Shown in pieces: positions 1 to 16,952 of a stretch of 26,317 bases of DNA (positions are counted from its first letter, which is position 1; every line of letters begins with the position of its first letter). This DNA is from a virus. The stretch lies in IMG/VR virus record IMGVR_UViG_3300043772_000538, positions 1 through 26,317 of that record. The stretch is one strand, 5' to 3'. A program made the position numbers and the translations under genes. The notes under the pieces are model-generated. The model worked only from the letters and a program-made list of their open reading frames with translations, was not told where the DNA came from and searched no databases.

Positions 1-3000
1 GCCTCGGGGGACGCGCCGGCCAGGTCCATCACTCCTTCGATGGCGGCCAGCTGCTCTCCGATCACGCGGCTCATCTCGGCATTGGGAGACTGCACCAGGC
101 GAACGAGGTTGATCTTGGCAGGCGCCGCAGGGGCAACCTTCTTTGGCCCGAACTGTGTCCCCTTGAACCGGCCACGGATTACGTCCTGGGCAAGTTTCAG
201 GGTGGTCGGCGAGTAGTTCAGGAACCCGTCGCGGATCGTGCGCCAGTGGGCGTACTTCGGGAGGTCGAGACCCTCCTCGATCGCCTCTGGATCGGGCTCT
301 TCTTTGGCGTCCATGGCTTCCTGGTACTGAGCGCGAAGCTCTTCGTTGCCGGCTGCGCTAGCCATCATAACCGCCCATCCGGCGTTGAACTCAGCCTGCT
401 TGACGGCGTCCTCGGTAGCCTTCTGGACCTTGGCCTGGGTCGCAGGCTTGGTCATCAGCGCTAGGCGCTCGTCGGCCGTGAGCTTTCGATTCGGAGGCTG
501 GGGAGGCTCGGTAACCCCAAGCATCCGCGCGTTCTGGATGATCTGCTCGATAGCTTCATTCTCAATCTCGCGTTCCTGTTTCTCCTTCTGAGTTTTCGGC
601 TTCTTGGTAGTCAGGCGCGCCTGGACAGTGCGGTAAACGCGGCCACCGGTATCGGCCAGTGCCAGGACTCCAAACCGATTCAGCATCTCCCGGAGGTCAG
701 GCTTCTCGCCAACGATCTTCTGGATATCGGCCTCGGTAAACTGACCACGGAACTCGGTCATGATCTTGTCCATCACACCCTTGACGCTCTCACCGTTGAA
801 GCTGTCGTAGATGGCTGATGTAAGGAATCCGCGCACATTGCGAGCCATGGCCACGAAGTCCTTCACGGACGCCCTCAGGCTCGCCAGGTTAATACCAAAC
901 TGGGACGCCTCAGACTGACCGATCAGGTAGAGTTCATCTCGGGTATCAGGGCTGAATGCCTCGGATGCGCCGAAGTGGTTGCGGAGCGACTGGATTAGTT
1001 CTGCGATGGTATCGCTGCGGCCATCGGCCTTGGCCTTGGCGATCTTCTTTTTGGCGACCTCGATCAGCTTTCTTCCAGCCGCCTCCTGGTCAACCCCATC
1101 GACAGGCGCGAAGAGGGTGTCTCCCACTTGGCGGAACTTTACACCCGCCTCGTTGAACGCATCAACCGCCAGCTGGATACCAGCGTTTACAACCTCAGGA
1201 GTCCTAGACCGTCGGCCGGCGACAGTGTCCTCGTATGCGCCACGCTTGGTGGTTACAGGCTTGCCGGGCGTACTGTAGATCACACCGAAGTCGCTGCTAT
1301 TCGCACGCTCCGGCAAGGTGGCTACATCAGCGATAACCTCTGGTGTGGGCTCGACCGTAGATCCTTGAGCGCGGTCCCAAGCGTACTGCAACGCCGGACT
1401 GAGCTTCATTTGCAGGCTGGTCGCCCATCGTGAGGCGCTCTGGATGCCGGAGAGGATTGCTTTGGACGCCAGATTGGTAAGGGTTTCAAGAACCCGGCGC
1501 GCAGAATCCTCGGGCGTCGGGCCTTCAGTGATGCCAGCCTTGGGAGTGATAGACTCGACGAACTGGGCGATAGCGTCGGAGACTTCGGCGACGGCGTCGC
1601 TGAGGTCATCGAAAGAGGGGGTGAGGCGTACTGTAGGCCCACTTGGATCTGACGACAGCTGCCAAAACGAAACCCTTCCAGAAGCCTTTGGATTGCTTGC
1701 AACGATAATGTTTCCAGAGGTCCGCACGTCTCCAAAGTGCTTACGAACCTCAGCAACGTAGTCGGATGTCTTCTTGTTGTTCTGGAATCCTTTGGATGTT
1801 CTGCGGCCATTGCCAGATCGGTCACCCTCGTAAATTTGGAAGTAGGCAACTCCGTTGGGCTCAAGCGCCTGAGCAGCCTGAAGAATGACATTGTCTCTAG
1901 CGGGAGCCTCAGCAACGACATTCAATACGTTAGGGACGGTCGTGGTTCCAAATCGCTCGCCTGACTGCAACCGATTGACAGCTGCACGATTGGATTCAAC
2001 GCTTCGATTGAACGGATCAAACGGAACACTCTCCGTGACACCCCGCTCGCTCTCAAGGTACTGCTTCCCGAGGTCGAACTTACCGGCACCAATGTCCAGG
2101 TTTTTGCCGCGAGGAACGAAGATCTTACTCTTAAAGACTGCGGGGATCTGGGCCAGTGAAGTGTCGGCTGAGGAGACGTCTTGAGACGGTTGATCTGGCA
2201 TGAGGCTAATCAGCCGGTTAGACAACTCGGCATCATTGACAGGGTCATTTGGGTAACTTTGCCGTGCCTGTGCAACCGCCTGGCGAATTGCGCGATCCAC
2301 AGCCATGCCGGTGTGAATCAACCCCTTGGCGATCTGAAGGGCCAGCTTCGCCAGCGGCGTTAAAAGCAACGGATCCGAGTATTGATTTTCGTCGATGTTC
2401 CTAGTGATCTGATCAATGGCATCAATCGCTGATTTGCCGGCCCGTTGAATCGGACTTTCGTCAAAGAGATTCATCTGCGCCTTATCCTGGGCAGCCTTAG
2501 CTTCAGCAGCGGCGCGGGCTTCAGCTTGAGCCTTTTCTCTGCGAGCCTCCAGGTCGATGCCTTCCTCTCCAAGCAGGGTAACCTGTTCGGATTGCGTGCT
2601 GGTAATCAGATCACCCTGGTTTTCTTTAGCTGTAAGGCGGGGTTTGCGTTCGGCGGGCGCAGCCGGCCCTTCGGTAGGAAATTCAAACGCATCTCCGCCT
2701 CCGCGATCAGGAGGTTCATCCACGAAGATCGTGTCGTATTCCGTCAGTTGCTGAGCTCCAAATTTATCGCCATCGCGAATCGTGTAACCTCCATCTGGAG
2801 TAACAACTGTAACCTCGAATTGCTCGCCTTGAACCGAGAACTTGTCTCCAAGCGCAAGGCTTCCAACTGATATTTGAATAGGTCCATCTGGTTCTCCAGC
2901 ATTCTGCATCCCCTCAGTTTGAGCATCAACGAACGCATCATCCTGCGCCTGTAAGAACGCATCGAGACCCATCGCTTCTTTGGCGCCGGCTTCCGCTGCC

Positions 3001-6000
3001 TTAGTTTCCTCTTTAGCAGCAGCGACGTCTCCTTTGCGACCGCGTGCTGCCTTCTTAACTTCATCCCAGAACTCAGACACGCTCATGTCCCCATACTTAC
3101 CGGGGTTTTGCATGGCAAGCTCCTGGAGGAGTACGTCTGGCAGATTCCGGCTTGTTGTTCCGCGCGACCTTCCTGCGAAGATTTTATTGAAGTACGCATC
3201 CAGTTTTGGAGCGTCGTCGTAGAGGTCTCTGATCCTATTTAGGCGTCCTTCATTGTTGGCCTGCGTTTTAGACATGACGCCACCGAGAGCAATAATGTCA
3301 TCAAGGATGTCTCCTTTGAACGCCCACGCGCGGGCTTTGTAGCGCTTCTTAGGAGCGGCAGGTGTAGCTGGAGGTGTGGGGACAACAGGAGGTGTGGGTG
3401 CCACCGGAGGCGTCGGCTCCTTCTTCGTCAGGTCCTTCTTGGCCGCCTCGGCAGCATTAGCCCCTGAGAACGACTCATCCTCGAAATTGAAGTTCTTAAT
3501 GTTGGTAGCGGTAGCTCCCACCTCTCCTTGAACCAGCGCGCCCATGTCCCTCATGCGGCCACCAACTCGGGTCGCCAGTTCGCGCTCAAACGGAATGTTG
3601 TCCGCGAAGAGCCACATCATCTGGGCTTTACCTCTGAGTCCGTAGCGCGCAGACCGCAGCGACACCTGCTCCACCTGAGATGCGGTCCACGGCAAGTTGA
3701 CGTTGATCTGGGTTGTCGGGTGCGTTCCAGTCTTGTCGTGTAACGATAGCCCTGTGCCGCCCTTAGCCATCGTGGCGACCAGGACCATAGGCTTGTCGCC
3801 GCGCCAGAGTTCGAGATTCTTCTGGGCCCGCGCATCTGTCACCGAACCCGTGAAGATTGCGACATCGTTGGCGCCAATCTCGTTTTTGATCACGTCTTCA
3901 GCGGACGGTATCGAAATTACAGTGGTGTCAATTCGCTCCATCGTCGCTTCCAGCACGTTAATTATGCCGTCTGACAGCAACCCTTGGTAATCCGAACGCT
4001 TCGGCTTTTCGCCTCCCGTCCTCTCTGCTATGGCTTTGGCTCGCTTGAATTGCTCCTGGAGCCTCAGCTGCTCTTGAATGTCGATGCTTCTCTCTGCCTT
4101 GGTCTCAACGAATATGATCGGCCATCTTCCGGCACTGAGGGCCCGGCGTGCTTCGCTGATTGCGTTCTTGATCTTAGACGCTTCCAGCAGGCGCTTCTTG
4201 TAGTTGATGATCCACATCTTTTCAGTGCCATCGAGGGAGCCCTTTTGAGCCTCGGCTTCAGCCGCAAACGCATTGTAGGTGTTGGTCCATTCTTCATCCC
4301 CTTTGATGGGCACCAGGCGCGAATCAACTTGGCTTGCTGGCAGTCGGGTCTTTCGAGCCGTGAAGATACCTTCCTTGCGGAAGAAATTTCTCGCCGCAAT
4401 TTGATCCTGCTCGTTGGTTTTAGTTGGGAACCAAATGGTTCGGACGATGTTTCCTCCGCTGTCCCTACTCGGTGTCGCACCGTACGCAAGAGCGAACTGT
4501 TTGTAATCACCGTTGAACGAATCAAAGATTCCAGTGTTCAGTAGGTAGGCCGTCTGAGTCGGGTTCTCGAACGGCGTCGCGGTTGAGAAGATCGGGAACT
4601 TGGTCTTAAGAATCCACTCTTGAGCCTTCTTGGCCTGCTCTGATCCGCTTCCAGCCAGGTTCTTGATCGCGTGCGCTTCGTCGAAGATTATCACGTCTGA
4701 GTCTTCCGCTTGGAGATCCTTCATCTCCGAGTAGGTGATAAACTTCACGGGGCCGATATTGTAAGCCTTGAGATCCTGTTTGATCTGCTTAATCAACCCT
4801 TGATTGAGGGTCACGTAGATGATCTTGCGGGCGAAATAATTATCCTTTATCTCGCGAATAGCAGCCCCCAACACGAAGGTCTTTCCGGTTCCAGGTGCGC
4901 TGGAAAGCATGAAGAACGGCCGGGTGTCTCGTTCCGCAAACGCTCGCACTATCATGGCCGCGTCTTCAATCTGCTCATCTCCAACTTCTCTCGGGATGCC
5001 AAACTCTTCGCCTTGGCGGATAAGCTCCTGAGTTCCTACGTCAAGATACTTGTCAACGCCTCCGTCCAATCCGCTTCGGTCGGGCCGGTTGTCCGCATTC
5101 TCTCGGAGTTTTCGGAGTTCAACATCACGGGAATAAGCCGGGCCACTACTTCTTTGTCCGCCAGCAGCTCCCGAATCAGCTCTTGATCGCTCGATAAACT
5201 GCCCAAGACCGGCGGCAGAGATCGTGTAGAACTTGTCATTCCCGATTTGGGAATATCGTCCGCCGGCATTGGTAAGTTCTTCTTTGCGGTCGTAAGTCTT
5301 ACCCCGGAGGGTGATGCTACCATCTGGGTTCTGCCGGGCGTTAATCTTGAGGCCAGTGAGGAAGGATTGGTTTTCATCGGTAAGGATTGCTTCGGCTTTC
5401 GCTCTCTCTTCTGTGACCGCGTTCTGGTATTCCGGCAGTGAGTTAATGTAGTCGCCAACTTGGCGCGAGCGCGACCCAAGGGCGGCGCTCCTGGTGCTTC
5501 GGACCAACCACATAGCGTAGTCCGGCTGTTGCGCGAAGAGGTCTTTGACTAAGAGGGCGGCGTACTTCCCGTGGCTAACGTTTTGGTTGGCGATTGCGGG
5601 GGTAGCAGCAGGGGCGGGGCGGGGTGCGGGGGCGGGGGGCTTAGGCGCGGGCGCGGCGGGCGCAGGTTTAGGTGCAGCGGGAGTCGCCGCCGGCGCAGGA
5701 ACCAGCGCGGCCCTCAAGGCTTTAATGGTCCCGACGGGATCTAACTTTAGACCGCTGTTAACACCGCTCATCTGGCCGCTATCCATCCGCATTCCGATTT
5801 CGGATTGGGCAAATCCTTCCGCAGTTAGACGACCTCGTTCCGCTTGTGTTTGAAGTCTCTCCAGCTCGAAGTCCGCGTCTTTGTATAAAAGCGGGCTAAA
5901 CCCGTAATTCGGAGCCTCCGTGATCGTGTACCGGAAATCAGGCGCCACCTGGAACGGGGTTGGCTCCTGTGGCGCAGTAGGCGTTTCTGCCACGGCTGGC

Positions 6001-7514
6001 GTTTCTGCCACGGCGGGGGTCGCCGCAGCTTCAGGCTTAGTCCACCCCGTGGTCTCATCGAACTGAAACCCAGCATCTTGCAGCTGGCGAATACGGCCAA
6101 CAAAACCCTCGAAACGAATCAACTCTTCATCAGTAAGGAGAACATCAGTGACTGAGCCTTCTCCGATGGCGTCAACGATTGAGAGAAATTCCTGAGTCTC
6201 CTCAACCGTCAGCGGCTGGACTTCGGTGGGAGTAGCAGAGACCGATGTCTCGGAGGCAGCGACCGTCTCAGGAGCAACAGCGGTAACTTCGACTGGGGTC
6301 TCCTCATCAGCTACGTCGGTCTCCAGAGCCATGTCTGGAATCTTGGCTTCTTCATCTGCCGGCACAACAGCCCTACCTGGAGGTACGAGCTTAATCGGTC
6401 CAGAAGGCGCGCCGCCGGAGTTGATGCCAGCAAGGGTGGCGGTGGCGTTGGGGAGTGGGAGGTTGGGATCGCCGCCGATAGCAGCGACGCCGGCTGCTTG
6501 GCGGTCGATGATTTCCTGAAGGCGCTGCCCTCCAGGTGCAGGCCCTTCGACAAGGCGTTGCTCCTGGATCTGGCCCATCCTACGAACTCGTCCATAACGG
6601 CCTGCTCCGCCAGTCACTAATCCAACCAGGCCACCTACCGTTCCGCCGACTGAAGTCGAATCATAAACGCCTTCGCTTAGTTTCTGATCGGGGTTGTAAG
6701 TCTTCCTGGCGACTGCGTTGCCAAGCCATTGCTCTGACCCCTCCTGACCAGCTTCTCCGACCAACGGTTTTAAGATATCTTCTAGGAGGTTTTTTCCTGC
6801 CTTGCCCGCTATCGCCTGATTGATTGCCGGCACCGCTCCGATAGCTCGCTCCGTAAGCCCACCAATCGGCGCAGTGTAAAAAGCCGCTTGGTACTGTTTG
6901 GTAGGCTTTTCAGCTTGTAGGCGATTGACCTCTGTTATGTTCCCTTCAGCCAATGCCTGCGCGATCTTGGCGTCGTAAAACTGGCCAGCGCGTTGAGCCG
7001 CATCTTCTGCGGTGCTGAATGCGTAAGCCGCTTGCCCGACACCAGGCACTATCGACACAGGAAGTGACCCTAGTCCGCTGGCGACCTGGGTGAGAAAATC
7101 ATCTTCTCGAAGGGGATTGACTGGGAATGCTTCTCTTGCGCCCTCTTGAAGCGCCTTGCCCATCTGGAATGTCGGGCTGGCCTCAAGCATCGCTGCACGA
7201 GCCATGGTTTCCTCCGGCGACACCTCCTTGACGCGCTTTTCCCAGGCTGCCTGCCTACGTTCGTAGGCCGCCATCGCAGCTGGGCTTTCAGCCTGTGCTG
7301 CTGAGATTAATGGCGCTGGCTCTTCGAGGCCTACACGCGTCAGGCCCATCATACCTCCACCGACCATGCGGCCACCTTCGCGCATGAGGGCGTTGCCAGC
7401 AGCGGGCAGCGCGCCTTGATCAATAGAATCAACAAGCTCTTGAAGCTCTTGGTCAGTGGCATCATCGGGAACCTCGATCAGGCCGATGTCCTGGATATCA
7501 ATGAGCTTAGGCAT
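1..7514 (-). CDS. Giant polyvalent protein: SF2/SNF2-type helicase plus SAM methyltransferase (C-terminus off window)
   Basis: At least 2504 residues in one uninterrupted frame from an ATG at 7514, open at the left edge. Residues 14-31 read EVPDDATDQELQELVDSI, a short N-terminal motif common in phage injected and polyvalent proteins. Residues about 253-305 hold a Glu/Gln patch and a Gly-rich hydrophobic stretch. About 643-675 resembles the ExoX C-terminal-like module (HGKYAALL...DYAMWL). About 738-765 resembles a small KALGGRW-type domain. The helicase follows: Walker A APGTGKT (873-879), DEAH (945-948), STATPF (about 977), GGTGLSLHD (about 1250) and an arginine motif RSARYGLRG (about 1287). 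About 1543-1595 looks like a small beta-barrel. The methyltransferase starts with LDIGAGKFD (about 1806) and DPFNRS (about 1832). The C-terminal 600 residues are helical and unassigned. Phage P1 DarB, which also joins a methyltransferase and helicase, is packaged and protects injected DNA. That role is inferred here. The start lies 3 bases after the upstream stop, with no Shine-Dalgarno sequence. Confidence 0.88.
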   Translation of the reverse strand, partial: MPKLIDIQDIGLIEVPDDATDQELQELVDSIDQGALPAAGNALMREGGRMVGGGMMGLTRVGLEEPAPLISAAQAESPAAMAAYERRQAAWEKRVKEVSPEETMARAAMLEASPTFQMGKALQEGAREAFPVNPLREDDFLTQVASGLGSLPVSIVPGVGQAAYAFSTAEDAAQRAGQFYDAKIAQALAEGNITEVNRLQAEKPTKQYQAAFYTAPIGGLTERAIGAVPAINQAIAGKAGKNLLEDILKPLVGEAGQEGSEQWLGNAVARKTYNPDQKLSEGVYDSTSVGGTVGGLVGLVTGGAGRYGRVRRMGQIQEQRLVEGPAPGGQRLQEIIDRQAAGVAAIGGDPNLPLPNATATLAGINSGGAPSGPIKLVPPGRAVVPADEEAKIPDMALETDVADEETPVEVTAVAPETVAASETSVSATPTEVQPLTVEETQEFLSIVDAIGEGSVTDVLLTDEELIRFEGFVGRIRQLQDAGFQFDETTGWTKPEAAATPAVAETPAVAETPTAPQEPTPFQVAPDFRYTITEAPNYGFSPLLYKDADFELERLQTQAERGRLTAEGFAQSEIGMRMDSGQMSGVNSGLKLDPVGTIKALRAALVPAPAATPAAPKPAPAAPAPKPPAPAPRPAPAATPAIANQNVSHGKYAALLVKDLFAQQPDYAMWLVRSTRSAALGSRSRQVGDYINSLPEYQNAVTEERAKAEAILTDENQSFLTGLKINARQNPDGSITLRGKTYDRKEELTNAGGRYSQIGNDKFYTISAAGLGQFIERSRADSGAAGGQRSSGPAYSRDVELRKLRENADNRPDRSGLDGGVDKYLDVGTQELIRQGEEFGIPREVGDEQIEDAAMIVRAFAERDTRPFFMLSSAPGTGKTFVLGAAIREIKDNYFARKIIYVTLNQGLIKQIKQDLKAYNIGPVKFITYSEMKDLQAEDSDVIIFDEAHAIKNLAGSGSEQAKKAQEWILKTKFPIFSTATPFENPTQTAYLLNTGIFDSFNGDYKQFALAYGATPSRDSGGNIVRTIWFPTKTNEQDQIAARNFFRKEGIFTARKTRLPASQVDSRLVPIKGDEEWTNTYNAFAAEAEAQKGSLDGTEKMWIINYKKRLLEASKIKNAISEARRALSAGRWPIIFVETKAERSIDIQEQLRLQEQFKRAKAIAERTGGEKPKRSDYQGLLSDGIINVLEATMERIDTTVISIPSAEDVIKNEIGANDVAIFTGSVTDARAQKNLELWRGDKPMVLVATMAKGGTGLSLHDKTGTHPTTQINVNLPWTASQVEQVSLRSARYGLRGKAQMMWLFADNIPFERELATRVGGRMRDMGALVQGEVGATATNIKNFNFEDESFSGANAAEAAKKDLTKKEPTPPVAPTPPVVPTPPATPAAPKKRYKARAWAFKGDILDDIIALGGVMSKTQANNEGRLNRIRDLYDDAPKLDAYFNKIFAGRSRGTTSRNLPDVLLQELAMQNPGKYGDMSVSEFWDEVKKAARGRKGDVAAAKEETKAAEAGAKEAMGLDAFLQAQDDAFVDAQTEGMQNAGEPDGPIQISVGSLALGDKFSVQGEQFEVTVVTPDGGYTIRDGDKFGAQQLTEYDTIFVDEPPDRGGGDAFEFPTEGPAAPAERKPRLTAKENQGDLITSTQSEQVTLLGEEGIDLEARREKAQAEARAAAEAKAAQDKAQMNLFDESPIQRAGKSAIDAIDQITRNIDENQYSDPLLLTPLAKLALQIAKGLIHTGMAVDRAIRQAVAQARQSYPNDPVNDAELSNRLISLMPDQPSQDVSSADTSLAQIPAVFKSKIFVPRGKNLDIGAGKFDLGKQYLESERGVTESVPFDPFNRSVESNRAAVNRLQSGERFGTTTVPNVLNVVAEAPARDNVILQAAQALEPNGVAYFQIYEGDRSGNGRRTSKGFQNNKKTSDYVAEVRKHFGDVRTSGNIIVASNPKASGRVSFWQLSSDPSGPTVRLTPSFDDLSDAVAEVSDAIAQFVESITPKAGITEGPTPEDSARRVLETLTNLASKAILSGIQSASRWATSLQMKLSPALQYAWDRAQGSTVEPTPEVIADVATLPERANSSDFGVIYSTPGKPVTTKRGAYEDTVAGRRSRTPEVVNAGIQLAVDAFNEAGVKFRQVGDTLFAPVDGVDQEAAGRKLIEVAKKKIAKAKADGRSDTIAELIQSLRNHFGASEAFSPDTRDELYLIGQSEASQFGINLASLRASVKDFVAMARNVRGFLTSAIYDSFNGESVKGVMDKIMTEFRGQFTEADIQKIVGEKPDLREMLNRFGVLALADTGGRVYRTVQARLTTKKPKTQKEKQEREIENEAIEQIIQNARMLGVTEPPQPPNRKLTADERLALMTKPATQAKVQKATEDAVKQAEFNAGWAVMMASAAGNEELRAQYQEAMDAKEEPDPEAIEEGLDLPKYAHWRTIRDGFLNYSPTTLKLAQDVIRGRFKGTQFGPKKVAPAAPAKINLVRLVQSPNAEMSRVIGEQLAAIEGVMDLAGASPE
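3364..3417 (-). repeat. Three tandem 18-bp units coding a Pro/Thr linker
   Basis: Three imperfect 18-base units (3364-3381, 3382-3399, 3400-3417) code for PTPPVA-like hexapeptides in the giant protein. They lie between the end of the helicase and the next helical domain, so they most likely encode a flexible interdomain linker. Confidence 0.8.
5590..5702 (-). repeat. Low-complexity Pro/Ala-rich linker coding segment
   Basis: A very G-rich stretch on the plus strand that codes on the minus strand for about 35 residues of almost only Pro, Ala and Lys. It lies just before the ExoX-like module of the giant protein (residues about 605-641) and separates the N-terminal region from the enzymatic part. 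It is probably an extended linker. Confidence 0.8.
5981..6016 (-). repeat. Two tandem 18-bp units in the giant gene
   Basis: Two adjacent 18-base copies that differ at one position (5981-5998 and 5999-6016). They code for repeated AVAETP-type hexapeptides and look like replication slippage in a linker. Confidence 0.8.
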
Positions 7515-8492: not shown

Positions 8493-9263
8493 TTAGCTTA
8501 GTCCTTGGCGACCGTAACCTGTCGGCATTCCAGTTGAATAATTCCAATCACCACCTGTGCCAGCATTAGCGCGAGTTTGCGCCCCCAGCTGCGCGAATCC
8601 AAGGTTGGTTAACCCTGATCCAAGCGATCCGAATGCCTGACCAGCAACTCCAGTTGCGCTCGGCATACCGGCAACACCAAGCAGCGCCTGTTGCTGGGCG
8701 CCACGCTCACCGCCTCGCAGGGCTGCTATCTGTTGCGGAGTGAACTCGTAGTTGGCTAGCGGTGCCATTGGTGTGGTTCCGATTATGTTGGCGAATTGTT
8801 GTTCACCGAGTCTTGCGGCTTCATAAGAACCCCGACCAAGGTCTCGAAGAACCAAATTCTTCCCGGCTCCACTTCCGGCAAACCCTTTCTCAAGAGCTTG
8901 ACTGGCCGCTCTACGTTGAATCTGCGCCGCGACATCAGGTGGTAGTTCTCCTCGAAGCAGCGCTAGCGCGTTCTGCGTGCGCTGAGCTTGGCCTTCCTGA
9001 TAACCAGGAATCTGAATGCCGAGTGACTCCAGCAGCTGGGCGCGACTAATCGCATTTCGCTCAGCCTCCATTTCACGGGCACGAGGCGCGTTTAGGGAGG
9101 ATTCTCCCATCACTGAGCCAATGTTGATTCCCGGGAGGTTAGCGGCGTCACGGCCTTGCCGGCGTGCTGCGCTGGCAGACGATGCCGACATACCGGCACC
9201 AATCCCTGCCGACACAATTCCGCCTGCGATTACTGGCCCAACTGCTGATGCGAATATTGACAT
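8493..9263 (-). CDS. Gly/Ala-rich putative internal virion protein (gp14-like position)
   Basis: 256 residues. The N-terminus (about residues 8-30) is hydrophobic and glycine-rich, AGGIVSAGIGAGMSAS, like the membrane-active N-termini of small podovirus ejection proteins. The middle (about 60-160) is rich in Arg, Gln and Ala with helical character. The C-terminal 90 residues are Gly/Gln-rich low complexity. Family membership cannot be proven by eye. The position next to the coiled-coil and giant genes and the composition support a T7 gp14-type internal protein, but this is an inference. The start overlaps the end of the cupin-like gene by 34 bases in another frame. A GAGGG lies about 18 bases upstream, too far for a usual ribosome binding site. 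An alternative is a generic structural protein with no membrane role. Confidence 0.75.
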   Translation of the reverse strand: MSIFASAVGPVIAGGIVSAGIGAGMSASSASAARRQGRDAANLPGINIGSVMGESSLNAPRAREMEAERNAISRAQLLESLGIQIPGYQEGQAQRTQNALALLRGELPPDVAAQIQRRAASQALEKGFAGSGAGKNLVLRDLGRGSYEAARLGEQQFANIIGTTPMAPLANYEFTPQQIAALRGGERGAQQQALLGVAGMPSATGVAGQAFGSLGSGLTNLGFAQLGAQTRANAGTGGDWNYSTGMPTGYGRQGLS

Positions 9264-9727
9264 AGTAAGTATTGATTTTCCCTCACGGACGCAATGTCGT
9301 TCAGGATGTCTTCGTGATCCGTCTTATTGCTGGGGTTTAAGTGGACCGTCGTCCAAGTGGTATCTTCATGGATAAACAGCACACGGCGGGTTCCTGGCTT
9401 CGTGATGCCAGAATACGGCGCTACGTAGGTGACTAGACCTTCGTTCTCGCTAATGACCGTGACCCTGCCTTTGGTGATGAAGAACGGGTTGTCGAACTTA
9501 TGGATGCGACTGGTTACGATTGACCCAGCCGGCATGAAGATTTCACGCACGTACATCCCCTCTGGGAACGTGTGTTTTAGCGGACACTCCTGTTGAGGAA
9601 GATTCGCCACAAACGCTTCCCATCTGTCCAGACGATCGTCGAACGTGATAGTTTCATCCGTCAGGATGTCGAGCCACGTCACCGGCTGCGTCGCTACTGG
9701 AAGCTCTTCGGTAATCAGGGTCATCAT
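9230..9727 (-). CDS. Cupin-like small phage protein
   Basis: 165 residues. The central part (about 60-130) reads as a small double-stranded beta-helix: EIFMPAGSIVTSRIHKFDNP, then KGRVTV, then a GITKPGTRRVLFIHEDT strand pair. Histidines at 76, 120 and 129 could form a metal site. Similar cupin-like proteins are common among phage structural genes, but their role is not known to me. The start ATGATG overlaps the TGA of the adaptor-like gene. A GGTGGA five bases before the first ATG is one of the few Shine-Dalgarno-like sequences in the window. The 3' end overlaps the next gene by 34 bases. Virion association is inferred only from the neighbours. Confidence 0.8.
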   Translation of the reverse strand: MMTLITEELPVATQPVTWLDILTDETITFDDRLDRWEAFVANLPQQECPLKHTFPEGMYVREIFMPAGSIVTSRIHKFDNPFFITKGRVTVISENEGLVTYVAPYSGITKPGTRRVLFIHEDTTWTTVHLNPSNKTDHEDILNDIASVRENQYLLCQYSHQQLGQ

Positions 9728-11794: not shown

Positions 11795-14700
11795 CTAGAT
11801 GCGGTAAAGGTAGTCGTTTGGCTTACACGGGCCTGGGTCGCATTCAAGCGCCAAACAAGCCTCCGGACAATCGAAATAGAAGAATTGGTTCAGCGGCGCA
11901 ACGCATCCCGATGATCTTCCGCTAATGAAAAAGGTCGCGAACCTGCCACCGTTGTTGATCACCAGCGGGTCTCCACTCAAGCGGCGCACCGTGTTGCATC
12001 CAATCTGGATGTTCTCGACGTACCTTAGGAAGTTCCCGGTTGATGATGTGAACGCGACATTGGGGCCAGGACTCGCGCAGGTAAACGTCGTCAGCGTAGG
12101 AATCCCAGTCACGATCACCTCGTCGTTGAACGAAACATCGCTGAGCCCCTCAACGGTTGCGTGGTATCCAACGACCATCTGGTGCGCCTTGTTCGTCGTG
12201 TACGTGGCCACCCCTGCGGTGCGCTGAAATCCGATGGGTTGGATTTCCCAAGGAAAGTCTACCGGGCTATCAATTCCCAGAAGCCCTCCAGTGGTGCTTT
12301 CGTTTACGCCTGGATTTAAGACGGTGAAAGTCGTGGTAGTCGGAGTGGCTATAACCGTGAATTTTCCAATGAAGCTTCCGATGACGGTTTTCAGAATCGT
12401 CACCTTAAAACCAGGTTGAAGCTCGTGCGCTGAAGCCGTTGTAAACGTCGTTACGCCAGTAAGGCGCGTCGCTGATGTAACAGGAATTTGATAATCCGTT
12501 GGATAGTAAAAAGCAGACTTATCTACATCGTGGTTGTTAATAAGAAACGGAGCGTTGATCGGAGGATAGGCTGGCTGGTAATACCATGAATCAGGCCCAG
12601 ACAACAAAACGTCGTTGTTTTCAATTACCATGTTCTTATGCGCCGCTGTAAACGGGGAATAAAACTGGGCGTTATTTAGTGCGTAATAATCTACAGTTTG
12701 CAGCGCAATAAAAGAACTAACATTCAACGCTTCATTGTGGTGTAGGTGGGTTCCTTTATGAAAAAACGAATCAACGTAGAAACAAGTTCCAATATAACCA
12801 TTGAAATTGTTGTACCTTACCTCTGCATCAACCGTTTCCCTCACCGTCACTGCGTGTAGCGGGCTTTGAGCATCCGGTCTATTCGGTCCAGATATAAATT
12901 TGTTTTCTTCTACGACACAATCCGATGCAAAGATGCGCCGGCTGCGAAGCATCATTACTGTGCCATCTCGGTACAGGCCAGGGAGGACGTTTGGGTTAGC
13001 GTTTGCAGCTGTAAATTTATACTGATCTGGTATGGTAAGAACGGTGTATGTGCCGTTGAATGTCGCGTCTGAAAAACCGCTTACCACCACTACATCACCC
13101 ACCCTCAACGTGTGCTTCATCACGCAGGTGTATGTAGCAATTCCGGCCGATCTTGATATGATATTAATCGGATCTACTATTGATGAATATCCGCCAACCA
13201 CAACCTCCGTAACAGCCTCTGCGTTTCCAACGTAAAGTGTTCCTTGAACCGAGTTGCTGCCTTCGTATCCGAACTTATTTCTTAGAACTTTGGCTCCTGG
13301 CGTTCCATCCTCCACCGTCATTGGGAGGAATGTTTTAACCACAAATGATTCTTGGTTCAACGTCCCGTTCCCAAAATCGTAGAACTCGCAATCTTGAATC
13401 AGTGCGTTCTCTCCTGTGTGGTTAATGCCAGCAATAGTGTAGACCGAGTTTGCGCCAGCGTTTACTTGCGGTGTTAGGAGGACATCTGGAGCGGACCATG
13501 CGCGGCCGTTTTGGAGCAGGTCAACGGTGCCTAAGTCTGGAATTGGTCCAATGTTGGTTCCAGGGTTAGCGCAAGTAAACTGAACCGGGCTTGGATATCC
13601 ATTTACGACAAACGTCCCGTTAAACGACGCATCGGAAAGACCTTGAATCAGGACGTTTTCTCCGCCCACGAAACCGTGCGGAGTTGCAGTATCGTAAATT
13701 GCATTTCCAGCTAACCTTTCAAATCCATTAATCTGAACAGTCGTCGTAGGCCCAACATTAACACACAACACCTCGTTGATTGAAGGAAACGATACAACTA
13801 CAAATGTTCCATTTAGCGTTGCGTTTGAAAATCCAGTTACAGTAAACGAATTTCCAATAGTAAAAGGGAAATACCAATTAGGATGGCGAGTGTAAATAGC
13901 TTGATTTACAGAATTTCTTTTTGCTTGAATTAATACAACGCCAACGTCTCGTTGAAACGAAAATTGAGTGATGTTCTGAACTTGACCATAACCCACAAAT
14001 GTAACATCAGCTCCAGTTCCGGCGGTTATAACATTACTGATATATTGCTGATATATTCCTACGTTTGTATACAACGGAGGAATTGGAGGGACGTATACAG
14101 GAGGTGCCTGTGATGAAAACTGAGTTGTTAAACCATACGGATGAACAAATGCAATAGGTATTGCAGAGTTGTAGGTATTTATTCCGTTAGTTCTCTGAAC
14201 TGATACTATTTTAACATCAGCAACGGAATTGTTTCTGTAATTTCCATCAATAGTAAGACCTTGTATTAAAGTATTTTTGCAATTTGTAGCATCTGCTGGG
14301 TTTCCTTTTACGCTTAAAGGAACTCCAACAACTCCTGATCCAGTGGCGGTCCCGATAGTCTTAATCATCTGGGCGCTTAACCCATACAAATCAAATATCT
14401 TTGTCGATGTATGATCTGCAAACTTAAGGATAGTTTTTCCTGCGCCTTGACCAGTGATCTCAATATTGTTGATCGCCGCATCGTATCCAAGTAGAATTGA
14501 GGATGTAAATCCTCCGCCAACAAGGTTTATCCATCCATCTTCGGTGACCAATCCAGAGTTTGGTCCAGGAACCGTTGCTGTAAACGTAGTTGAGCTTGGG
14601 GTTGCATCGACGCGGAAGCCATAATAAGTTGCGGGATTTCCGTCAGGTCCGTTGAACGTAGGGTCCGTAAAACCGTACAGCGTAATTTTCTCTCCAACAA

Positions 14701-14911
14701 CCAGTCCGTGGGCAGTAGAGGTGTTGAACGTCGCAACGCCTCCGGTGCGGACACGGTTGATAATCTTCGCTCCCGGGCTCGATCCAAGCAGAAACGTGCC
14801 AACCGGAAAATGGCATTTGCCAGTGAGATTCAAGCATTCACTGATCGCCCACGCGCTGTTTCTTAGTCCGCAGGGATCGGCGCCGTAATCGACTGGATTG
14901 TATGATGGCAT
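11795..14911 (-). CDS. Tailspike, right-handed beta-helix with six inserted repeat modules
   Basis: 1038 residues. I chose the ATG at 14911 over the longer frame to 15106 because it begins 1 base after the upstream stop and opens directly with the pectate-lyase-like entry MPSYNPVDYGADPCGLRN...CHFPVGTFLL (residues 1-42). Short PbH1-like turns recur (LIQGLTIDGNY, LIQDCEFYDFGNG, VIENNDVLLSG). Six copies of a roughly 68-residue module are set into this scaffold (residues 51-126, 320-392, 396-463, 584-652, 812-877, 894-960). Each has a GVATY..AHGL..G start, a G(F/L)SDA(S/T)FNGT middle and a FT..NPGPN end. The last 40 residues hold five cysteines. It is presumably a trimeric host-polymer-binding or depolymerising spike. 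No catalytic residues can be named by eye. Confidence 0.88.
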   Translation of the reverse strand: MPSYNPVDYGADPCGLRNSAWAISECLNLTGKCHFPVGTFLLGSSPGAKIINRVRTGGVATFNTSTAHGLVVGEKITLYGFTDPTFNGPDGNPATYYGFRVDATPSSTTFTATVPGPNSGLVTEDGWINLVGGGFTSSILLGYDAAINNIEITGQGAGKTILKFADHTSTKIFDLYGLSAQMIKTIGTATGSGVVGVPLSVKGNPADATNCKNTLIQGLTIDGNYRNNSVADVKIVSVQRTNGINTYNSAIPIAFVHPYGLTTQFSSQAPPVYVPPIPPLYTNVGIYQQYISNVITAGTGADVTFVGYGQVQNITQFSFQRDVGVVLIQAKRNSVNQAIYTRHPNWYFPFTIGNSFTVTGFSNATLNGTFVVVSFPSINEVLCVNVGPTTTVQINGFERLAGNAIYDTATPHGFVGGENVLIQGLSDASFNGTFVVNGYPSPVQFTCANPGTNIGPIPDLGTVDLLQNGRAWSAPDVLLTPQVNAGANSVYTIAGINHTGENALIQDCEFYDFGNGTLNQESFVVKTFLPMTVEDGTPGAKVLRNKFGYEGSNSVQGTLYVGNAEAVTEVVVGGYSSIVDPINIISRSAGIATYTCVMKHTLRVGDVVVVSGFSDATFNGTYTVLTIPDQYKFTAANANPNVLPGLYRDGTVMMLRSRRIFASDCVVEENKFISGPNRPDAQSPLHAVTVRETVDAEVRYNNFNGYIGTCFYVDSFFHKGTHLHHNEALNVSSFIALQTVDYYALNNAQFYSPFTAAHKNMVIENNDVLLSGPDSWYYQPAYPPINAPFLINNHDVDKSAFYYPTDYQIPVTSATRLTGVTTFTTASAHELQPGFKVTILKTVIGSFIGKFTVIATPTTTTFTVLNPGVNESTTGGLLGIDSPVDFPWEIQPIGFQRTAGVATYTTNKAHQMVVGYHATVEGLSDVSFNDEVIVTGIPTLTTFTCASPGPNVAFTSSTGNFLRYVENIQIGCNTVRRLSGDPLVINNGGRFATFFISGRSSGCVAPLNQFFYFDCPEACLALECDPGPCKPNDYLYRI
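12032..12232 (-). repeat. Tailspike repeat module copy 6
   Basis: Residues 894-960 of the tailspike. It opens FQRTAGVATYTTNKAH, continues EGLSDVSFND, and ends TTFTCASPGPN. This is the copy nearest the consensus. See the finding on the repeat family. Confidence 0.85.
12281..12478 (-). repeat. Tailspike repeat module copy 5
   Basis: Residues 812-877 of the tailspike. It opens TSATRLTGVTTFTTASAHEL and ends TTFTVLNPGVN. The middle GFSDA segment is diverged (TVIGSFIGKF). Confidence 0.8.
12956..13162 (-). repeat. Tailspike repeat module copy 4
   Basis: Residues 584-652 of the tailspike. It opens IISRSAGIATYTCVMKHTLR, contains SGFSDATFNGTYTV, and ends YKFTAANANPN. Confidence 0.85.
13523..13726 (-). 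repeat. Tailspike repeat module copy 3
   Basis: Residues 396-463 of the tailspike. It opens FERLAGNAIYDTATPHGF, contains QGLSDASFNGTFVV, and ends VQFTCANPGTN. It directly follows copy 2, so the two form a tandem pair. Confidence 0.85.
13736..13954 (-). repeat. Tailspike repeat module copy 2 (diverged)
   Basis: Residues 320-392 of the tailspike. The opening is diverged and longer, but TVTGFSNATLNGTFVVVS and the downstream VGP ending identify it. It lies in the A/T-rich part of the gene. Confidence 0.7.
14534..14761 (-). repeat. Tailspike repeat module copy 1
   Basis: Residues 51-126 of the tailspike. It opens INRVRTGGVATFNTSTAHGL, contains YGFTDPTFNG with a short insertion after it, and ends TTFTATVPGPN. 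It lies immediately after the N-terminal beta-helix entry motif. Confidence 0.85.
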
Positions 14912-14912
14912 A

Positions 14913-16952
14913 CTATTCGGAGAGTAGCGGACACGCGACGCGGCTGAGATCGCCGTAAATATCCTCTTGAAGGCGTTGAGCAACCATCGCCACACGTTTG
15001 AGGCGGAAGCGGCCGGTGTTGACGTATCGAAGCTGGAACTCATAGCCATCGCGGGTAAATCCCCCGGTCTGCACGTCGCACTTGTCCGGAGGCTGCGGTA
15101 GGGCAATGCGCGATCTTGCAGGGGGCTGGTAGTATTTGACCTCCTGGCAGTTGATCACCGCAGGAGGGCAGGAAATCTCGCCTGGTTCGCAGTTGCGGTA
15201 CTTCGCGCAGTCCTTGATCTCGGCCCACGGATGCCAGCACTCACCCTCGTTAGCCTTGAAGTAGACCTTTGATTCAATGTCGCCCATCACCTGGTCGTAC
15301 CACTGCTCGGCGCTGACAAGGCGCTTCTTGTTTGTAGGTTCACCAAACGTGATCGACCGGGTCTCAATGGTCCATTCGATCGGAGCATCATCGTATCCAT
15401 CGAAGTCAAACTGGCCGTTCTTGGTGACCTCAAAGAGACCGATGTCCCCTTGATTCAGTCCAAACATGAAGCAGTGTTCTTGTTTCTGGATTCGGATCGT
15501 CAGCATCTGGAACACATCGACTCCAGTCCATACACCCTCCCATGCCGGCGGCAGCTTCCGGCCCATTCCGGAGACGAGATCGAAGTCTAGGGCTACGACT
15601 CCTCGGTGTACCGTGCCTCTACCGTTGACCTTCTGAGGCTGAATGGTCATCAGCATCCGGTTGTCGAAATTTACCGCGCTGGCTGCGGTCAGGTAAAACT
15701 CCGTGTCGTAAGCTATCGCACGAGTAACCTGCCGGCTAATCGGTGTATTTCCAAACTCAGTGAAGTCGCGTCTGGCGTAGATCAACGATCGGATGCCGTC
15801 CTGAGCACGGAAAAACAGGTCGCCGTTTACCGGCACGATGGATTCGTGGTTGAACGATCCGAAGTTCAGGAGCGCGAATCGCTGGATTGGATAGCTGAGA
15901 TCCTTCCAAACATCCCGGTCCACAGGCGCGTTAAACGCGTAAGTGGCGGTCGGGGTAAACACCAGTAGGTCTCCGTCGCCAAGGGACGTGTCCAGGTTGG
16001 CCGCGAATGCCAGCCCCGTGATCGGGCCGTTTGAGACCGCAAAGGCACCGCCTTCATTGATAAATGTGTTCTCGGTGAATCGAATCACGCTGTCCCGGCC
16101 GTAAGCAGGATCTCCGTAGACTAAGTCTCCACCGTAGTATTCCGATCCACTGGCTACCCAAAGGCGTCCTTTTCCGTAAGCCATCGGACCCCCAACTGGA
16201 ACCTCATCACTTAATGCTCGTCTCAACGAAGTTCCATCGTAGAGATACGGAGCATTCTGTTGATCTTGAATAATCAGCCAGTTTTCCGCCTGCTGAAAGT
16301 AAACGTGAGCTGCGCTGGGATTGTTGGTTGAAAGCAGGTAGCCAAAAAAGGCTGGCCCTAGAAATGGCCCAACATCAGCTCCTGGAGAGTATGTCGTGAA
16401 GCTGTCAAAAGTCGGGATGTTTTGGACAATAAAGTCCCCAAAGAACCCAGCTGGCGAGGTAGCCCCAGGAACCTCCGGCAACCTTACTACCATGCCAGGG
16501 AAAAGCCCGTGCGCTCCACCAGTCACGTAAGTCGCAACATTGGCAACGCGACCACGGGTAAAAACGACAAACTGCGAAGCGATTGCGGAGAGATCGGTGA
16601 CCTTAAATTTATTTTCGATGTCGATCTTGAAGACCTTGCCGCTAATCGACGCAAAAATGTAAGGGTCTCCGTTATCAGAAACGTATGTTCCGCACCCCTG
16701 GAACTGGCCTTCTTTAAATCCCGATTGCACCGCAGCGTTGTAGTAACCTCCGTTGTAGAGAACGCTTGGATCGTCAAAAGTCAGCAGTTGGGTCCAAATC
16801 CCAGGTCGCGCTTTCGGGAATCCTCCGCGCACCGTCGTGTTTACCGCCCATGCTAGCTGGTTCGGTTGAATGAGTGAGGGCGAAAAACCGCTATCCACCC
16901 CACCTTCAGCGGTGAGGAGGCCATCTACTATGCGATTTTTTTCTGCGACCAT
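14913..16952 (-). CDS. Putative tail tubular B-like / tail stabiliser protein
   Basis: 679 residues from the ATG at 16952 (MVAEKNRIVDGLLTAEGG). A TTG 14 codons upstream is in frame but is rejected because the protein pattern begins at this methionine. The sequence is beta-rich with propeller-like segments (GGPMAYGKGRLWVASGSEY, GDGDLLVFTPTATYAF, VNGDLFFRAQDGIRSLIYAR). This fits the large beta-structured tail-tube or nozzle proteins of podoviruses. Residues 131-199 carry a seventh copy of the module found six times in the tailspike next door. A cysteine-rich segment lies at about 569-608 (GECWHPWAEIKDCAKYRNC and following). The C-terminus is basic and helical. It is the first gene of the long minus operon, and its start overlaps one candidate start of the divergent terminase. 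Assignment rests on context and composition. Confidence 0.75.
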   Translation of the reverse strand: MVAEKNRIVDGLLTAEGGVDSGFSPSLIQPNQLAWAVNTTVRGGFPKARPGIWTQLLTFDDPSVLYNGGYYNAAVQSGFKEGQFQGCGTYVSDNGDPYIFASISGKVFKIDIENKFKVTDLSAIASQFVVFTRGRVANVATYVTGGAHGLFPGMVVRLPEVPGATSPAGFFGDFIVQNIPTFDSFTTYSPGADVGPFLGPAFFGYLLSTNNPSAAHVYFQQAENWLIIQDQQNAPYLYDGTSLRRALSDEVPVGGPMAYGKGRLWVASGSEYYGGDLVYGDPAYGRDSVIRFTENTFINEGGAFAVSNGPITGLAFAANLDTSLGDGDLLVFTPTATYAFNAPVDRDVWKDLSYPIQRFALLNFGSFNHESIVPVNGDLFFRAQDGIRSLIYARRDFTEFGNTPISRQVTRAIAYDTEFYLTAASAVNFDNRMLMTIQPQKVNGRGTVHRGVVALDFDLVSGMGRKLPPAWEGVWTGVDVFQMLTIRIQKQEHCFMFGLNQGDIGLFEVTKNGQFDFDGYDDAPIEWTIETRSITFGEPTNKKRLVSAEQWYDQVMGDIESKVYFKANEGECWHPWAEIKDCAKYRNCEPGEISCPPAVINCQEVKYYQPPARSRIALPQPPDKCDVQTGGFTRDGYEFQLRYVNTGRFRLKRVAMVAQRLQEDIYGDLSRVACPLLSE
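16356..16562 (-). repeat. Seventh repeat module, in the tail-tube-like protein
   Basis: Residues 131-199 of the 679-residue protein. It opens FTRGRVANVATYVTGGAHGL and has FPGMVVRL, GDFIVQNIP and FTTYSPGADVGP in the same order as the tailspike modules. It has an extra loop where those have the SDASFNG segment. Confidence 0.75.

Follow-up and report, generated by a model that had tools for sequence, protein, structure and literature searches.

The module repeated in the tailspike and in the adjacent gene of IMG/VR virus record IMGVR_UViG_3300043772_000538 is a known domain with an unusual evolution, in which whole cassettes are exchanged at specific slots and modules are recurrently nested within modules. 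Ongoing change consists mainly of allelic replacement and nested insertion, both of which lay out of sight of the original prediction. Based on sequence profiles and structure models, we favor on balance a joint reading, in which the repeat is a small beta-barrel of the endosialidase/FCCH type, with five to six strands, and the tailspike a beta-helix bearing an array of exchangeable barrels that contact glycans.

Copies of the module and their genomic setting

The window, i.e., the whole stretch of 26,317 bases that was analyzed, contains a large-terminase gene recognized by a PHROG match, an SSB-like ORF, and a 776-aa ORF without PHROG match that probably encodes the portal. A run of tail genes is probable on the minus strand. 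The same strand holds a 2504-aa open frame with DNA-helicase matches (3–7514) that runs off the window; it contains long Pro/Ala-rich linkers, is polyprotein-like and is unusually large for a phage gene. A small gene (9230–9727, minus strand) matches short tail fibre and tail fibre adhesin families. The longer relatives usually measure 43–49 kb; contig L060, at 92.5 kb about twice that size, may be a concatemer or reflect another genome size.

Six copies in the tailspike and one in the adjacent gene had been predicted, and all seven were found on the minus strand at the claimed places, so that a single domain is indeed repeated across two adjacent virion genes (Table 1). The residue limits of the tailspike copies did not hold as given and were redrawn by HMM. 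The copies are ~66 residues long, with a mean column identity of 43% across the seven aligned segments. Leave-one-out HMMs scored 25–76 bits per copy; the best of 2000 shuffled sequences gave 10–15 bits, and none reached the real score. In the full tailspike model, all six clear copies are predicted to share the same strand pattern. S3 and S4 are directly tandem and form the sole such pair, as had been proposed. No further credible copies were seen in other frames of the window.

Table 1. Positions in the window of the two genes and of the module copies
Feature	Residues	Position	Strand	Remark
Tailspike gene	1038 aa	11795..14911	-	ORF; start ATG at 14911
Adjacent gene	679 aa	14913..16952	-	ORF; directly upstream of tailspike
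Module S1	50-123	14543..14764	-	Allele-variable slot, 9-aa loop extension
Degenerate eighth copy S2x	234-322	13946..14212	-	Long Pro-rich insertion
Module S3	328-394	13730..13930	-	Most divergent among clear copies
Module S4	394-458	13538..13732	-	HMM boundaries
Module S5	582-646	12974..13168	-	Plain allele in this phage
Module S6	811-875	12287..12481	-	Allele-variable slot
Module S7	893-956	12044..12235	-	Stable slot
Module N in adjacent gene	131-199	16356..16562	-	Leave-one-out profile

Homologues brought out one more tailspike segment, S2x, which is a decayed eighth copy. Its opening, IVSVQRTNGINTY, matches the first 22 positions of the module (hhalign E 2.9e-6; non-module controls ≤1.3% probability). 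Its second half gave weak matches of 6–10 bits in homologues, with the FNG-like half placed after the Pro-rich insertion.

The two proteins as wholes returned nothing useful in Pfam or NCBIfam scans and no match to solved structures in PDB sequence searches, and neither matched named phages by tblastn. No sialidase domain was found in the tailspike. The product of the adjacent gene is possibly a tail nozzle or tail-tube protein, a label guessed from position and size. Cysteine-rich segments that are highly conserved across homologues lie at the C-terminus of the tailspike (11795–11900, minus strand) and in the C-terminal part of the adjacent gene (~15000–15200, minus strand). A separate 668-aa virion family (phrog_3287; L174:4584-6587 and relatives L153 and L175-L181) has two module copies, one of them placed similarly to that of the adjacent gene. 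Kinship between this family and the adjacent gene was rejected, as no similarity was left once the modules were masked.

Predicted fold and relatives of the module

AlphaFold2 run on an alignment of 37 copies gave a module model with pLDDT 88 and pTM 0.75. Foldseek searches of the PDB with this model placed the K1F and phi92 endosialidases first (1v0e, 3gvj, 4hiz; TM 0.70, 2.5 A, 27–28% identity, probability 1.0), with UBA1/UBA6 as the next group (probability ≤0.99, TM ≤0.63). A profile of the 37 copies searched against PDB sequences independently put the same endosialidases on top (phi92 E 1.3e-4, K1F E 2.5e-4). Toward the Pfam family End_beta_barrel (PF12195), S5 alone reached E 3.5e-4 (20.9 bits) and the consensus 1.4e-4 (22.2 bits), both short of the curated cut-off of 35; toward E1_FCCH (PF16190), the consensus reached E 0.005 (17.3 bits; cut-off 29.5). 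The module is thus a relative of these domains rather than a formal member.

The endosialidase barrel is the best match in both sequence and fold, and is likewise an accessory barrel of a trimeric tailspike. In the endosialidases, however, a single barrel sits on a beta-propeller enzyme, whereas here six clear barrels would sit on a probable beta-helix, with nesting, allele exchange, sub-threshold Pfam scores and no known link to sialic acid. The E1 FCCH domain shares the same small barrel fold and a matching H-G-x-x-x-G-D-x-V region; unlike the endosialidase barrel, it scores more weakly with the module and is a cellular enzyme domain with no sugar-binding role.

The tailspike backbone is modeled as a probable right-handed beta-helix with inserted modules. 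The full model is weak (pLDDT 61, pTM 0.47). Its Foldseek matches comprised LKA1 gp49, AP22 gp54, HK620 and GH110 (E 6e-9 to 1e-3; 6e-5 to 1e-3 for the tailspikes). These tailspikes and the GH110 galactosidases (7jw4) resemble the model in their beta-helix backbone, in distant, low-TM matches.

Old slots, module replacement and nesting

The family comparison comprised 60 distinct tailspikes and 58 distinct adjacent-gene homologues. Copies from the same slot are 53–81% identical between proteins and copies from different slots mostly 21–42%, and the latter are hardly more alike within one protein than between proteins. In the module tree, the copies group almost entirely by slot, with 11 label changes where 10 is the least possible. 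The slots are therefore positional orthologues of old duplication, without homogenization; concerted evolution between slots was rejected, since similarity within proteins is no higher than between them.

Unequal exchange, which the irregular order of the copies had seemed to make likely, does not hold as a general mode, given positional slots, lack of homogenization and no DNA-level repeats found linking the copies. It remains plausible for S4, S4b and S4e, the sole supported cross-slot cluster (support 97/90), which is consistent with local tandem duplication. S4 is missing in 23 of the 60 tailspike homologues, and extra copies adjoin it in nine. Module N is kept in all 58 adjacent-gene homologues and forms its own long-branch clade. 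A single clade of both genes' copies that excludes outside modules gave p = 0.375 in the AU test, a value compatible with either a tailspike copy or the wider module pool as source of module N.

Close pairs of tailspikes (backbone DNA distance ≤5%; pairs not independent) differed by >20% at S1 in 25%, at S6 in 30% and at S5 in 54% of cases, part of the S5 figure being misalignment of nested with plain alleles; none of the pairs differed to this extent in any of nine backbone blocks. Silent codon differences in the replaced modules amount to 0.56 at S1 and 0.49 at S6, whereas the backbones of these pairs show 0.06; the modules were thus replaced whole, by recombination, and not altered by fast point change. 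On the backbone tree, the allele classes of S6 take 19 changes although nine would be enough, and the backbone blocks require exactly the minimum. One pair, L010 and L047, is 94–100% identical in DNA over most of the gene; its differences are concentrated at S5, and lesser peaks appear at S1 and S6. S7 showed no such replacement in close pairs; it and the adjacent-gene copy are stable.

At S5, 27 of the 60 tailspikes are nested: positions 1–30 of the host module are followed by a complete second module and then by the rest of the host, which in most of these copies resumes from about position 40. On a tree built without the module columns, the best estimate is 15 switches between nested and plain forms, at least nine of which are forced by well-supported branches. 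The guests fall into two classes, both persisting across many backbones. Plain and nested forms both occur across independent metagenomes, and L014, L015 and L037, themselves from independent metagenomes, have nested alleles with the same module layout. An assembly artefact was ruled out by this recurrence of nested alleles.

Gain and loss of modules might be neutral, with exposed loops tolerating insertions and recombination products surviving without selection. The recurrent insertions in tolerant loops (the Pro-rich stretch of S2x, the S1 extension, the S5 guests) would fit. We nevertheless regard neutrality as quite unlikely, as the alleles remain intact open frames, the two guest classes persist, and S7 does not vary in like manner.

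Possible role of the barrels in the virion

K1F endosialidase has three binding sites for polysialic acid, one of them its barrel, and the small residues S460 and S468 are reported to lie in the pocket of this barrel; whether the exchange S460R is tolerated depends on the strain (PMC12632334). In an ungapped alignment, both residues fall on serines, at model positions 30 and 38, with an inferred chain offset of 244, the sole offset found to put serines at both. As these positions bracket the point of guest entry, the guest appears to enter the loop equivalent to the pocket loop of K1F. The suggestion that the module binds carbohydrate thus gains support from homology to the polysialic-acid-binding barrel, which makes binding by the present copies probable by analogy.

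In the mechanism that we favor, barrels would be inserted at fixed turns of the right-handed beta-helix and hence probably project from the trimer shaft, a projection that we infer, the full model being weak. Their role would be accessory: in contact with glycans, they would hold or discriminate polysaccharide of the surface, which the beta-helix would meanwhile bind or cleave. The homologous barrel has such a role in K1F. S1, S5 and S6 would diversify through recombination between related phages, which either swaps a whole module or places a second one within the host module, on the side of its binding loop. S7 and the copy in the adjacent gene, both of them stable, may be mainly structural. 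A stronger version, a modular glycan-reading tailspike whose specificity is retuned when single barrels are exchanged and when a barrel gains a second one in its ligand loop, is put forward tentatively. Such nested-lectin diversification of phage adhesins was not found reported in the literature searched.

Alternatively, the barrels might be exposed insertions without a ligand, serving as spacers or stability elements that make the beta-helix trimer stiffer or shield it from proteases. The copies do sit within conserved beta-helix flanks, the S7 and N copies are stable, and E1 enzymes use this fold as a protein scaffold. A pure spacer would not be expected to have whole modules replaced at S1 and S6 or guests nested at the counterpart of the K1F pocket loop, and we consider this explanation rather unlikely.

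A close parallel for small repeated beta domains in tail-associated proteins is provided by the tandem BACON repeats of crAss-like phages, which evolve by duplication and by the horizontal transfer of individual domains and have been suggested to act in host binding (PMC6949934). They belong to another fold family and form tandem arrays instead of being dispersed in a beta-helix; nested insertion, seen here at S5, is not mentioned in the abstract of that study.

The module also occurs well beyond this tailspike. A consensus of the module matched 314 named phage records, mostly of cyanophages; this wide occurrence indicates that the domain itself is already known. A description of the module was not found in literature naming the Pfam families. 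Among the matches listed in named phages are proteins annotated as baseplate wedge, major/minor tail, structural and fibre proteins, and in viral contigs it sits in connector-like proteins and in others that match families of major head, major tail and Baseplate J proteins. The BFVD entries with the module include tail sheath, baseplate and tailspike proteins; one of them is named "Endosialidase, beta barrel domain". It is, therefore, a promiscuous virion module. Orphan cassettes elsewhere in the genome were looked for and not seen: among the matches listed (21 long contigs), only tailspike- or adjacent-gene-sized frames appeared. Two proteins matching major head protein families (L192:1647-2822, L201:3948-5279) contain the module, which may also decorate capsids, and a fibre-like protein (L184:1415-5347) combines three copies with CBM_5_12 carbohydrate-binding domains.

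Occurrence in major capsid, major tail and connector-like proteins, together with the FCCH domain not binding sugar, means that the fold alone is no proof of glycan binding; the Pfam scores below curated cut-offs are a further counterpoint, and the fast turnover of slots may stem from loosened constraint on insertions that are exposed. The module could instead be a generic virion decoration like Ig-like domains, sticking weakly to environmental polysaccharide and letting the phage linger near cells, with receptor specificity not involved. Its presence in head, tail, connector-like, Baseplate J and fibre proteins, once beside CBM_5_12, agrees with such a role, but allele exchange is concentrated on particular slots rather than spread over all copies, and we deem generic decoration unlikely.

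The module is widespread in phage virions and mostly filed as unknown. Through its link with the endosialidase barrel, hundreds of tail, capsid and baseplate proteins acquire a function that can be tested. Near-identical tailspikes that differ by one module or one nested guest are a natural experiment on the role of the module, and the repeated replacement of single copies among related phages, together with nesting, suggests a set of interchangeable parts for surface recognition.
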